Part shown: positions 26,829 through 32,318 of the stretch, piece after piece
How the letters are laid out: each line of letters opens with the position of its first letter
Position numbering within the stretch: position 1 is the first letter of the stretch
NCBI RefSeq assembly: GCF_001719125.1
Contig: NZ_CP017006.1
Coordinates: 992,001-1,056,000, forward strand
From: Sulfolobus sp. A20
GTDB lineage: Archaea; Thermoproteota; Thermoprotei_A; Sulfolobales; Sulfolobaceae
Length of the DNA stretch: 64,000 nt
Direction: 5' to 3'
Position numbers and translations under genes: made by a program
Notes under the pieces: model-generated
What the model was told of the DNA's origin: nothing
The model's input: only the letters and a program-made list of their open reading frames with translations
The model's database searches: none

Positions 26829-27164
26829 TTACTGTTTATTTTCCGATGATAATTTTTCCGCAACTTCAAATAAATCTGGATACATTTCTTTTAACCCCTT
26901 TTCTAAAGCCTCTTTAGCTACTCTACTCATTTTAAAACCTGGAACCGTATGGTAAAGATATTGTAGCACGAGAAACGCGGGATAACTCCACACTCCTATT
27001 TTTGGATCTTTGTTAATGTATTTCATCATTTCTACTTTAATCTTATCTTTTTCATTAAAGTTTTCAACTTTATTTTCTGTAGATTCTTTGTTCTCACCTA
27101 AGATAGGTTGAGTCTCAACGTTATTGCTCTTTCTCTTTTTCAGAATAAAGTCTAACTCGCTCAT
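26829..27164 (-). CDS. segB: SegB chromosome segregation DNA-binding protein
   Basis: 111-residue partner of SegA. The N-terminal half is charged and probably disordered (KKRKSNNVETQ, EKDKIKVEM), a site for SegA interaction in the known system. The C-terminal half (MKYINKDPKIGVWSYPAFLVLQYLYHTVPGFKMSRVAKEALEKGLKEMYPDLF) fits the ribbon-helix-helix-type DNA-binding fold of SegB. The start overlaps the segA stop by 4 bases, as in the known segAB operon of Saccharolobus solfataricus. The assignment relies on the pairing as well as on sequence. Confidence 0.85.
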   Translation of the reverse strand: MSELDFILKKRKSNNVETQPILGENKESTENKVENFNEKDKIKVEMMKYINKDPKIGVWSYPAFLVLQYLYHTVPGFKMSRVAKEALEKGLKEMYPDLFEVAEKLSSENKQ

Positions 27165-27823
27165 TCCTCTAACACCTTAGATAGTTGTTGAAAATACGTT
27201 ACTAATTTTGGTCTCTTCACTCTAACCTCTTCATATCTCAAGGCTGGAACTCCGAGTCTAGAGGCTTCTATGAATAATCTGGACGGAGGGACGGCTATAT
27301 CAGTACATTTAATTGAAATTAAATTATCTACCTTTATAGGTTTCTTAGAGAAATTAGTAATTGAGTAAGCAGTTTTTTCTAGATTTTTCAGTCTAGAGTC
27401 TAAATTTTTCATCGCCTCTAAAGATAAGGGTTGCGGTGTGACTGGTGATACTATCTTATTAGCAGTGATCATTGCAGATATGGCTAGAGTTCCTAAATTA
27501 GGAGGTGTATCTATTACTAGATAATCGAACTGATCTCCTATTTTCTTTATTTTGTTACTTATCTCGTCTACATCTCCACTTAATTCCATCTTTAATAATC
27601 CAATGTTTGCCGGGAATACTTCAACGTTAAATATGTTTACGCTTTTAGATCCTAAATCTAGTTCCTTCATTTCCCTTTTCATGCCATAAGAGACTGTAGC
27701 TCCTCCCTCAGGATCTAGATCCAGTAATGCGGTTTTTTTAACTTTACTAAGATAATAAGCTAAATTGACGGAAGTAGTGGTTTTTCCTACTCCTCCTTTT
27801 TGGTTTATTATCGTGATAATCAT
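27161..27823 (-). CDS. segA: SegA ParA-type chromosome segregation ATPase
   Basis: 220-residue Walker-type ATPase that drives chromosome partition with SegB in Sulfolobales. The deviant Walker A KGGVGKTTT is at 9-17, Walker A' LLDLDPEGGA follows, and Walker B is YLVIDTPPN. A ParA-like DNA-binding Lys/Arg cluster lies at the end (YEEVRVKRPK). Full length for SegA. ATG 27823 is preceded at the right spacing by a TATA box, so the message is probably leaderless, and a GTCTAGAC palindrome abuts the start. Confidence 0.93.
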   Translation of the reverse strand: MIITIINQKGGVGKTTTSVNLAYYLSKVKKTALLDLDPEGGATVSYGMKREMKELDLGSKSVNIFNVEVFPANIGLLKMELSGDVDEISNKIKKIGDQFDYLVIDTPPNLGTLAISAMITANKIVSPVTPQPLSLEAMKNLDSRLKNLEKTAYSITNFSKKPIKVDNLISIKCTDIAVPPSRLFIEASRLGVPALRYEEVRVKRPKLVTYFQQLSKVLEE

Positions 27824-27831
27824 GTCTAGAC
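27824..27831. promoter_or_regulatory. candidate SegB operator GTCTAGAC at the segA start
   Basis: A perfect 8-base palindrome touches the segA start codon and lies between its TATA box (about 27847-27857, TTTAAA core) and the start. SegB is known to bind palindromic sites just upstream of segA; this site would block initiation. A second inverted repeat, GATGT-6 nt-ACATC, occurs about 30 bases further upstream. Confidence 0.5.
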
Positions 27832-27846
27832 TATTCAGTTAGTATG

Positions 27847-27857
27847 ATTTAAAAATG
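27847..27857 (-). promoter_or_regulatory. TATA box of segAB
   Basis: TTTTTAAATC on the minus strand lies about 28 bases ahead of ATG 27823, fitting a leaderless transcript. Confidence 0.5.
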
Positions 27858-27950
27858 AAAGTAGATGTAATACGACATCATATCTTAGCTTAGCCTCCTC
27901 TAAAACTATAATGATAATATTTATAGGTATGTTTTTTAAAAAGTATAAGC

Positions 27951-28442
27951 ATGTACATTGAACTCTTTAATGCCATAATTTATGCGGAGGAATTCAAAAA
28001 ATTGTTACTAAATCAAGATTTAGATGATCTGGAAACGGCTGCGGGTTATATTGCGTATCTTTATCCTAATATTCCGATAATAGGTAAGAATTTATGTGCT
28101 GGTTTCGTTAGAGCAGGTCTAAATGCTATTTTCAATGTGACTAATAATGGTGAGGTTATATTTCCTAAGTATAAACTATTCAAGATACCTCGGGGAGATG
28201 GTATTTGTGTAGGATGTAATAACTCACGTATAGTAATTAAGGTATCTGAAGAAGGATACGAACCCGATGATCTTCTAGAGTCTATGTCCCTTTACTCTAG
28301 AGTATTCATTAAGAGAGGATTTAAGCTGAAGAGTATGGAGAATATAAAGGAGAGACTAGATATTGAGTCTATTAGGAATAAAGCTAAAAAGGAAATACTA
28401 ACCTTAATGATCAGCGCCGGTGGTACTCTTCATCACCTCTGA
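27951..28442 (+). CDS. hypothetical protein divergent from segAB
   Basis: 163 residues, not recognised. It has four Cys, with CVGCNNSR forming a possible half metal site, and a mixed alpha/beta composition. An AATATTTATAG box 27-35 bases upstream of ATG 27951 indicates a leaderless message. It shares the divergent control region with segAB and is followed by a box C/D sRNA. Function unknown. Confidence 0.7.
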   Translation: MYIELFNAIIYAEEFKKLLLNQDLDDLETAAGYIAYLYPNIPIIGKNLCAGFVRAGLNAIFNVTNNGEVIFPKYKLFKIPRGDGICVGCNNSRIVIKVSEEGYEPDDLLESMSLYSRVFIKRGFKLKSMENIKERLDIESIRNKAKKEILTLMISAGGTLHHL

Positions 28443-28561: not shown

Positions 28562-29362
28562 ATGAGTTCTCTTAACATATTGTCCGCCTATAACCAGCTA
28601 GATACTCTAGTCGATATAGCAAAAAAGTATTCTACCGAAATGAATCTAGTACCCGTAATTCATGCTTACTTGGAGGATAAAATAATATCAAATGTAGTAA
28701 AGAGTCTAGAAACTGTGGTAAGAAATTTATATGAGCAGTATAAATTTGAAAGAACTACGTTTATTAAGAATGCACTTAAGTCGTTAAACTTCCCTGATGA
28801 GAACTTGCCATTTTATCCATACTACACCATACCTATAAGTGAGGAAACAATAGTAAAATTTATTGATAACTCAAGTATACCACCTAAGGCCATAATTATA
28901 CAAGGCGAAGTAAGATTTACATTCATGTTATATAGTTCATTTTCAGAGCTCGAAGAACATGTAAGAAACAGGCAAGATGAAGACATAATAGTTAAGTTTG
29001 AAGATGGTAAAGTGATAAAATATGATAGAAGGAGGAACATTTTTACTGATGCTAATGTTGTAAATAAGATCGTGTACTCTAAGAGCCAAGTAGCTGTGAA
29101 TTTAACGTTACCAAAAAAATATTACCTAGTACCTTCCTTACTTGCGATGAATGTTATCCCTCATGGTAACAAGGTAATAATAAGAAGAAAAAATGAGGAC
29201 TTAAATTTTGAGATAGTTGATGGTAAAGTGTCTGGTGAAAAAGTCATGAGCGGAGAAACTCTTAATCCCAAGTTTAAATTGGAGATATATTATGATTATA
29301 AATCAAAAAGATTGTTGAGTAAGGAAGATATAATAAAGGGTTTAATATCTAAAATAATATGA
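28562..29362 (+). CDS. hypothetical protein
   Basis: 266 residues, unrecognised. The N-terminal 100 residues look helical (LDTLVDIAKKYSTEMNLVPVIHAYLEDKI) and the C-terminal part consists of alternating strands (KAIIIQGEVRFTFMLYSS, NKVIIRRKNEDLNFEIVDGKVSG). No membrane segment or known motif. It lies after the sRNA and converges with the nitrilase gene, with the stops one base apart. Confidence 0.7.
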   Translation: MSSLNILSAYNQLDTLVDIAKKYSTEMNLVPVIHAYLEDKIISNVVKSLETVVRNLYEQYKFERTTFIKNALKSLNFPDENLPFYPYYTIPISEETIVKFIDNSSIPPKAIIIQGEVRFTFMLYSSFSELEEHVRNRQDEDIIVKFEDGKVIKYDRRRNIFTDANVVNKIVYSKSQVAVNLTLPKKYYLVPSLLAMNVIPHGNKVIIRRKNEDLNFEIVDGKVSGEKVMSGETLNPKFKLEIYYDYKSKRLLSKEDIIKGLISKII

Positions 29363-30082
29363 CTATAGCTGTTTTATGGTGAATTTTACAACCTCATTTA
29401 ACCTATTTTTCCTAAGTTGAATGAATCTAAGTGGGTCAACGTTCACAACTAAATAATTTTCCTCATTTCCAAGTTCACCAAGTATTTTTGGTAATACGAT
29501 GCCAGTGTTATTATCCTTTTCTGGTACTATTACTATACTATTTCCTGTGAACTCAGGTGGGTTATATGCATTAGCGTTTACTATTCCTATTCTATTTTCA
29601 AGTACCCTTATCCTAAGATAATCTTTCCAAATTTGAATTCCCGTGCTCCTAACCTTTGATGGGACTAATACTATTTCTACTCCATTAAGGAACATCTCCC
29701 TTATAAATTCTGGAAAATCTACGTCATAACATATAGAAATTCCAAACTTAATTCCCCTATATGTAAACATTACTCCTTCATTTCCCGGGAATAATCTAGT
29801 CTTCTCTTCTTCAAATAGGTGAACTTTCTTAGAAATTCCTTTCAAATTACCTGTATCATCTATTATAGGTGAAACTACTGAGACACCATCCTCAAATGCT
29901 CCAGGTATAATGTATGCCGTATATTTTCTAGCTAAATTTTGAAATTCTGAAAGTGGTACTTCATCCAGACTTTTAGTCCATTTCTCTGGCAAAAGAACTA
30001 ATTCTGCTCCTTCTTCTAATGCTTTTTCCGTTAGATTTAACGCTGATCTCGCATTAGAAGGTTGGATTACTCCAATTTTCAA
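29363..30082 (-). CDS. carbon-nitrogen hydrolase (nitrilase superfamily)
   Basis: 239-residue amidase of the nitrilase fold. The catalytic triad is visible: Glu in LLPEKWTKS, Lys in ISKKVHLFEEEK and Cys in GISICYDVDFPE. It probably hydrolyses an amide such as omega-amidated keto acids or carbamoyl compounds; the substrate cannot be read from the sequence. Its start overlaps the end of the CBS gene by 4 bases, so they share an operon. Confidence 0.9.
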   Translation of the reverse strand: MKIGVIQPSNARSALNLTEKALEEGAELVLLPEKWTKSLDEVPLSEFQNLARKYTAYIIPGAFEDGVSVVSPIIDDTGNLKGISKKVHLFEEEKTRLFPGNEGVMFTYRGIKFGISICYDVDFPEFIREMFLNGVEIVLVPSKVRSTGIQIWKDYLRIRVLENRIGIVNANAYNPPEFTGNSIVIVPEKDNNTGIVLPKILGELGNEENYLVVNVDPLRFIQLRKNRLNEVVKFTIKQL

Positions 30083-31215
30083 GCCTCTTCTGCCTTTACT
30101 CCCTTTTTACTCTCTTCTATCTTCCTCAATTTTCTTAATATTCTTTTCTCTATCTTTTCTACAGCGTTCTTAATTGCAACTGTTGGTTCCCAATCAGTAT
30201 CTTTAGCTATATAATCTCCAATTTTCGTCGTTACCTTAACGGTTGCTGTATACAATTTTTTATCGCTTTTGCTACTGCTCATTTCTTCCTTGAAAGAGAC
30301 TTTAAATCCTATTACATCCGTAAGTCTTTCTATCTTACTTAAATACCTCTCTAGAATACCATCTATGTTTGCCTTAAAATCAAGGTTAGATTTTAAGGTT
30401 TGTGGAATTTTTGCCTCTATTGGTATACTCAATTGCATCTTTTCAGTAACAGCTTTGATTACATCTAAACCACTTATAACTCCGCTTACCATTTCCCCTT
30501 CCATCACTGGTAAACCTGATATATTAAATTTCAGTATTTTTGTTACTACATCTTGTAAACTATCATTACCGTTTATCGTAATTACCGGATACTTCATAAT
30601 TTCTTTAATGGGCATTGCCATAACTCTTTCCTCATCTTTCATGATAGATTCTCTTTTTCTTCCACTAAAACTGTAAAGAGCGTCAACAATATCTCTGGCA
30701 GTAACTATTCCAGTCAATTTTTTCTCCTTCATTACTGGCAACCTACTAATATTGTCCCTTATCATAATCCATCTAGCTCTAGCTACAGAATCGTCTTCAT
30801 TAATCACAGTAGGAGGAGACGACATATACTCTCTAGCTTTTTTATTAGGTATTTGATTTGACTTCATTAAGTAAGATAAAAGGGACTCTCTCGTAATTAA
30901 CCCAAGAAATTCCCTTTTATCATTTACCACTGGTATTACCCTAGCCTTGCTTGTGTAAAATTTTGTAATTATTTTATCTATACTATCATTTATATTTACT
31001 GAAATAATCGGGTTCATTATGTTTATTACTTTAGTCTCTAGACTCACTCTTCTAGACAGAAGATCTTTATAAGAAATTAATCCTAACAATTTCTTATCCT
31101 TTACCACCGGGATAGTCCACATCTTAGTTTCCTTCATTTTAGAGATGATATCGTTTAATTTATCCATAGCATGAGCAATATATTCAGGTCTTATAATCAA
31201 AGAATCTTCTATCAT
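30079..31215 (-). CDS. four-CBS-domain protein with hibernation-factor-like C-terminus
   Basis: 378 residues from ATG 31215. Two tandem CBS pairs (LGLISYKDLL, LGLITRESLL, TGIVTARDIV, SGVISGLDVI) normally bind adenosine nucleotides. The last 100 residues (IPIEAKIPQTLKSNL to the basic end) have the beta-alpha-beta-beta-beta-alpha order of ribosome hibernation factors (HPF/RaiA-like): TATVKVTTKIGDYIAKDTDWEPTVAIKNAVEKIEKRI. I infer an energy-sensing ribosome-binding protein. The longer frame to 31311 overlaps the divergent HDAC gene and is less likely. Confidence 0.8.
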   Translation of the reverse strand: MIEDSLIIRPEYIAHAMDKLNDIISKMKETKMWTIPVVKDKKLLGLISYKDLLSRRVSLETKVINIMNPIISVNINDSIDKIITKFYTSKARVIPVVNDKREFLGLITRESLLSYLMKSNQIPNKKAREYMSSPPTVINEDDSVARARWIMIRDNISRLPVMKEKKLTGIVTARDIVDALYSFSGRKRESIMKDEERVMAMPIKEIMKYPVITINGNDSLQDVVTKILKFNISGLPVMEGEMVSGVISGLDVIKAVTEKMQLSIPIEAKIPQTLKSNLDFKANIDGILERYLSKIERLTDVIGFKVSFKEEMSSSKSDKKLYTATVKVTTKIGDYIAKDTDWEPTVAIKNAVEKIEKRILRKLRKIEESKKGVKAEEA

Positions 31216-31262
31216 ACTAGATAAGTATTTTAAATTGAAAAATAAAAAAGTATTGATAGCGA

Positions 31263-32318
31263 TTGCATAGGACAGCCTTTGTTTGGAGTGATGATTATTA
31301 TAAATATTCATTTCCGGACGATCATCCGTTTAAATCGCTGAGGGAAAGTATGGCTAAAAGGTATTTAGAGGACAGAGGAGCATTTCATTATATAGACATA
31401 GTGAGTCCGCAATTGGTCTCAGATGATATATTACAGATAGTACACTCTAGAGAATATATAGAATTCGTTAGAAAGAAGAGTCTAGAGGGAATAGGGTATT
31501 TAGACGAGGGAGATACTCCCGCGTTTAAAGGTATATATGAAGCATCATTAGTTAGGATAAGTGGAAGCGTTACAGCACTTAATCTCTTGCTTAATGGAGA
31601 ATATGAGCACACTATAAATATTGGAGGGGGATTTCATCATGCAAAGAGAAATAAAGCAGGAGGGTTTTGTGTATTTAACGATGTTGCGTTAGTAGCTAAA
31701 TTAGCGGAGAACAAACTCTCTAAGATAGCTATAGTAGATATTGATGGACATCATGGCGATGGCACTCAAGAGCTACTTTATGATGACGATAAGGTATTAA
31801 AAATTTCTTTACATATGTATCATCCTAATTTTTTCCCTGGAAGCGGAAGTGTCAATGAGATAGGGACGGGAAAGGCTAGTGGATATACTGTAAATGTCCC
31901 TTTACCTCCAGGTACTGGTGATGACGGATATCTTCTAGCTTTTAATGAGGTAGTCGTGCCTATATTAGAAAGATATAAGCCAGAAGTGATAATTCTCATG
32001 GAAGGGGGGGATTCACATTTTGATGATCCCCTAGTAGAGTTAAAATTATCTACATACGGATATCTCGATGTGGTTACTAAGGTTCACAATATAGCTCATA
32101 GATATGCTGGAGGAAAATTATTAATGTTAGGAGGAGGTGGCTATAACTATGACGCAACTGCCAGAACCTGGGTTTTATCTATAGCTCAAATAGCTGATAT
32201 TTATGACGCTGAGTATGAACTTTTGCATGATCAATACCATACTAAATCATCATCTTTTGTAATGGATAGAATCAAAGATATAATAAGCCAATTAAAGAAA
32301 ATCCATTCACTTGATTAA
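31263..32318 (+). CDS. histone deacetylase family protein (class II-like)
   Basis: 351-residue zinc-dependent deacetylase. It has [20 protein letters not shown] (catalytic His pair), [18 protein letters not shown] (zinc Asp and His), and [12 protein letters not shown] plus [14 protein letters not shown] for the second zinc Asp and active-site Tyr. Archaeal members may deacetylate polyamines, acetoin-type compounds or proteins such as chromatin factors. The TTG start is the first in frame. A second, more distant paralogue is at 52356-53345. Confidence 0.9.

Follow-up and report, generated by a model that had tools for sequence, protein, structure and literature searches.

A HibA-family protein of Sulfolobus sp. 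A20 joins four CBS domains to an HPF/RaiA domain and is a probable ribosome hibernation factor

HibA, a protein that carries an HPF/RaiA domain behind a module of four CBS domains, was described in April 2026 (Nat Commun; PMC13324472) after cryo-EM had revealed it on 70S ribosomes from stressed Pyrococcus abyssi. The HPF domain of P. abyssi HibA fills the mRNA/tRNA channel of the 30S subunit, and its CBS module explores the tRNA sites of the 50S subunit (PMC13324472). HibA inhibits translation in vitro, aids recovery from stationary phase in Thermococcus barophilus, and was detected in 47% of archaeal genomes; the main text of that paper does not name the Sulfolobales (PMC13324472). CBS modules of the same overall fold occur in Dri of Pyrobaculum calidifontis (9e6q/9e7f) and in SriA-D of Methanosarcina, which also bind ribosomes (PMC13324472). 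These proteins lack an HPF domain, however, and Dri carries two CBS modules per chain rather than one. Bacterial HPF/RaiA proteins, conversely, are stand-alone or of the lHPF type and have no CBS domains.

The window analyzed here is a stretch of 64,000 nucleotides from the genome of Sulfolobus sp. A20, a single contig of 2.69 Mb; window coordinates equal genome positions minus 992000. An intact frame of 378 codons on the minus strand (30079-31215) encodes an N-terminal CBS module followed by a C-terminal HPF/RaiA domain. Relatives that share the same start residue favor the ATG at 31215 as its start, and the longest open frame, which begins at 31311, is probably an over-extension. When a full-length family profile was compared with the PDB, the best match was P. 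abyssi HibA (9sr9 chain H, labeled 'Dehydrogenase' in the deposition), aligned over 3-367 versus 6-378 with E=1.1e-44. Sequence identity with P. abyssi HibA was low, at 24% across 305 aligned positions and 20% within the HPF part. Because the profile alignment is continuous from end to end, an independent, convergent origin of the CBS-HPF fusion was set aside. The fusion proposed in the initial annotation is real; the idea is not new, however, since the gene encodes a member of the published HibA family. Like HibA (Pab0961), the protein has four CBS domains and then HPF/RaiA in the same order, a similar size (378 versus 392 aa), a long loop between CBS3 and CBS4, a hairpin insertion in the HPF domain, and (S/T)xxD motifs in CBS3 and CBS4. 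Our result confirms this family and does not reveal a new kind of protein; what we add is its presence in all 31 Sulfolobaceae genomes searched and a conserved gene neighborhood in that family, which P. abyssi HibA does not share.

Pfam PF00571 (E=2.5e-42) marked four CBS stretches, all on the minus strand: CBS1 at 31051..31191 (genome 1023051-1023191), CBS2 at 30865..31020, CBS3 at 30673..30837, and CBS4 at 30445..30609. The AlphaFold2 model and fold matches to known CBS modules confirmed this N-terminal arrangement. The earlier count of four was correct, but the wording 'four CBS modules' was not, as the four domains form a single module. A fold search with the whole protein matched CBS modules including AMP-bound SSO3205 (3ddj), AMPK gamma, and the ribosome-bound SriA/B/D and Dri chains. 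The (S/T)xxD nucleotide motif is retained in CBS3 (GIVTARD) and CBS4 (GVISGLD) and has drifted in CBS1 and CBS2; G169 and D175 in CBS3 and G245 and D251 in CBS4 were invariant among 27 sequences. This pattern agrees with P. abyssi HibA, which has one AMP/ATP site, located between CBS3 and CBS4, and whose CBS module binds AMP (Kd about 12 uM), ADP, and ATP (PMC13324472). From these motifs, an adenine nucleotide, most likely AMP, is predicted probably to bind between CBS3 and CBS4 in the Sulfolobus protein as well.

The long connector between CBS3 and CBS4 (residues 182-199; 30619..30672, minus strand) lies at the position of the 'PTC loop' of P. abyssi HibA. The distance from D175 to M207 is 33 residues, compared with 34 in the P. 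abyssi alignment as counted by eye. In the AlphaFold2 model, the loop has low pLDDT at 185-187 and is helical thereafter. At the end of the loop region, E195 and E196 were invariant in 27/27 Thermoproteota sequences, and this pair is unmatched in the P. abyssi alignment. We also considered whether the whole region is unusually conserved, and rejected the idea: residues 182-199 averaged 2.49 bits against 2.61 for the protein overall, with E195 and E196 the only invariant positions.

The Ribosomal_S30AE family (PF02482) matched residues 277-366 (30118..30387, minus strand; folded unit approximately 265-378) with 24.7 bits, barely above the curated cut-off of 23.7. Such a score might suggest that the match is incidental and that another small alpha/beta RNA-binding fold, such as a dsRBD, is attached to the CBS domains. 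The score is not a chance result, however, because all 27 orthologues scanned matched both the CBS and the Ribosomal_S30AE families (best E for PF02482, 1.4e-8) and because a C-terminal HMM from which the window sequence had been left out gave the window domain 125 bits, whereas none of 1000 shuffles exceeded 10.1 bits. With the same HMM, the gene was the sole stand-out among 92 six-frame frames of the window. A phmmer search with the C-terminal 113 residues alone returned nothing significant (best, 0.047 for 9sr9_H), so a profile was needed. The C-terminal profile placed 9sr9_H first in the PDB (2.9e-7), followed by 9l96_a (8.4e-5), a 406-aa CBS domain-containing protein that likewise ends in an HPF-like part and is the second-best solved relative of this region, and then by bacterial RaiA/YfiA, to which the similarity is weak but significant (approximately 4e-4). 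The family profile, in other words, favors HibA and RaiA by sequence.

The predicted fold pointed in the same direction. In the AlphaFold2 model of the whole protein (16 aligned sequences; mean pLDDT 83.5), the C-terminal part consists of a strand (266-269), a helix (278-298), three strands (301-311, 321-330, and 333-341), and a helix (344-377), which is the HPF order that the initial annotation had read from the sequence. Since the full-length fold search was swamped by CBS and AMPK-gamma chains, the C-terminal domain was folded separately; it showed the identical order of strands and helices (pLDDT 76.8), and its best 28 Foldseek matches in the PDB were all HPF, RaiA, YfiA, PSRP1, or pY. A predicted C-terminal fold that did not resemble HPF had been named beforehand as an outcome that would refute the annotation, but the predicted fold is that of HPF. 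dsRBD chains did appear in the search, but lower, with E values of 0.014 and worse, and the dsRBD-type reading, which we consider highly improbable, is largely ruled out already. Relative to bacterial HPF/RaiA/YfiA, including E. coli RaiA/YfiA, the fold in common is extended by a beta-hairpin insertion (residues 312-320; 30256..30282, minus strand) between HPF strands 2 and 3, which fits the second archaeal-specific insertion of HibA (P. abyssi 324-330). The model also contains a short extra helix of low confidence (272-275), a tentative candidate for the first archaeal insertion, which follows HPF strand 1 (P. abyssi 283-285).

We propose, with a probability of roughly 0.93, that this gene is the Sulfolobaceae orthologue of hibA and encodes a hibernation factor that would place its HPF domain in the 30S channel and its CBS module on the 50S subunit and so keep idle 70S ribosomes silent. 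The domain architecture, the fold, the end-to-end homology to HibA, and the conserved nucleotide-site motifs are its basis in this analysis; ribosome binding, inhibition of translation, and stationary-phase recovery are inferred from P. abyssi and T. barophilus. By orthology, the small subunit would hold the C-terminal HPF/RaiA domain in its mRNA/tRNA channel, and the four-CBS module would take the vacant tRNA sites of the large subunit, from which the long CBS3-CBS4 loop may be able to extend to the peptidyl-transferase center. Idle 70S ribosomes would then stay assembled, silent, and protected until regrowth. The suggestion of a crenarchaeal hibernation factor in the initial annotation is thus supported by HibA orthology, whereas the accompanying idea that adenylate sensing is joined to ribosome silencing fared less well. 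Nucleotides do bind to P. abyssi HibA, but its binding to ribosomes was not clearly affected by AMP or ATP (PMC13324472), and the sensing link is accordingly unproven and weaker than that of ribosome binding and silencing. A literature search turned up no report on ribosome association, expression, or gene knockout for any protein of this type in the Sulfolobales, and a paper on the S. acidocaldarius ribosome mentions neither hibernation nor CBS nor HPF.

Full-length orthologues were found in 31/31 Sulfolobaceae genomes and were missing from many other families of the same order. The C-terminal profile matched in 129 of 398 genomes of the phylum, mostly in frames of approximately 370-440 residues, which correspond to the fused form. 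In a set of ammonia oxidizers (AmoA in 22/22), the matching frames were mostly of 112-134 residues, which correspond to the unfused form. At three ammonia-oxidizer loci (L061, L064, and L065), a stand-alone HPF-like gene of approximately 113-130 aa adjoins genes judged by eye to be universal-stress-protein-like; a divergent CBS-domain gene (approximately 284-287 aa) also lies beside it in all three, indicating that CBS and HPF are still neighbors where they are unfused. Two other loci from the same family (L053 and L066) contain the fused form. A search for related loci with a single protein as the query returned nothing, and a search with an alignment as the query succeeded; the named relatives of the gene include Metallosphaera and Sulfolobales records.

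Sulfolobus sp. A20 has a single PF02482 match in its genome, as expected for the sole HPF-type factor. A PF00571 scan of the same genome detected no frame with more than four CBS matches, which indicates that Dri is absent. Members of the genus Sulfolobus are Thermoproteota that can be manipulated genetically. The presence of HibA in every Sulfolobaceae genome searched, together with one HPF-type protein and no Dri-like frame in Sulfolobus sp. A20, offers a clean system for asking whether nucleotide binding by the CBS domains controls hibernation. Sulfolobus sp. A20 also encodes two stand-alone four-CBS proteins, of 290 aa (genome positions 1089300-1090700) and 248 aa (2164600-2165900). The former is the orthologue of S. 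solfataricus SSO3205 (PDB 3ddj, E=4.7e-136), and both match the ribosome-bound Sri proteins of Methanosarcina by sequence.

On the minus strand directly downstream of hibA lies a gene for a carbon-nitrogen hydrolase of the nitrilase superfamily (PF00795; 29363..30082), with an overlap of 4 bases between its frame and the hibA stop; this hydrolase is downstream of hibA in 30 of the 31 Sulfolobaceae. A histone-deacetylase-fold gene (PF00850; 31263..32318, plus strand) is separated from hibA by a short intergenic stretch and points away from it in 29/31, and the whole trio (29363-32318 in the window) is likewise kept in 29/31. Such conservation would fit a HibA-family protein that in the Sulfolobaceae had lost or changed its ribosome binding and now acted mainly as an adenylate-responsive regulator of another process, for example of the neighboring deacetylase-fold or hydrolase enzymes, as would the reported pull-down of P. 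abyssi HibA with DNA replication and recombination proteins (PMC13324472). We regard this regulator as improbable, though less so than a dsRBD. All 27 members scanned retain the HPF domain, in which F304, K305, Y322, and basic residues are conserved, and the conservation of this region is close to that of the remaining protein (2.52 versus 2.61 bits); moreover, the neighbors are not conserved outside the Sulfolobaceae, whereas the CBS-HPF fusion is. The arrangement may therefore mirror shared regulation within the Sulfolobaceae and tells little about the mechanism of HibA.

If the protein is a hibernation factor, its conserved divergent locus, with a hydrolase that may be co-transcribed, raises the speculative and rather doubtful possibility that ribosome dormancy is tied to the turnover of acetylated or amide metabolites, and that the invariant E195-E196 pair is a Thermoproteota-specific contact with the peptidyl-transferase center. 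Our promoter and terminator scan used a sigma-70 model and was uninformative for an archaeon. Beyond the hydrolase, a 266-aa gene without a Pfam or NCBIfam match (28562-29362) has relatives close to hibA in several Sulfolobaceae, some of them in reversed orientation. Farther along, a 111-aa frame (26829-27164) and a gene for a ParA-like ATPase (27161-27823) share four bases. The gene adjacent to this pair (27951-28442), encoded on the opposite strand, matches NCBIfam SegC with E=9.8e-49, although the match falls below the cut-off. This region near hibA (26829-28442) is likely a segAB/segC chromosome-segregation locus.
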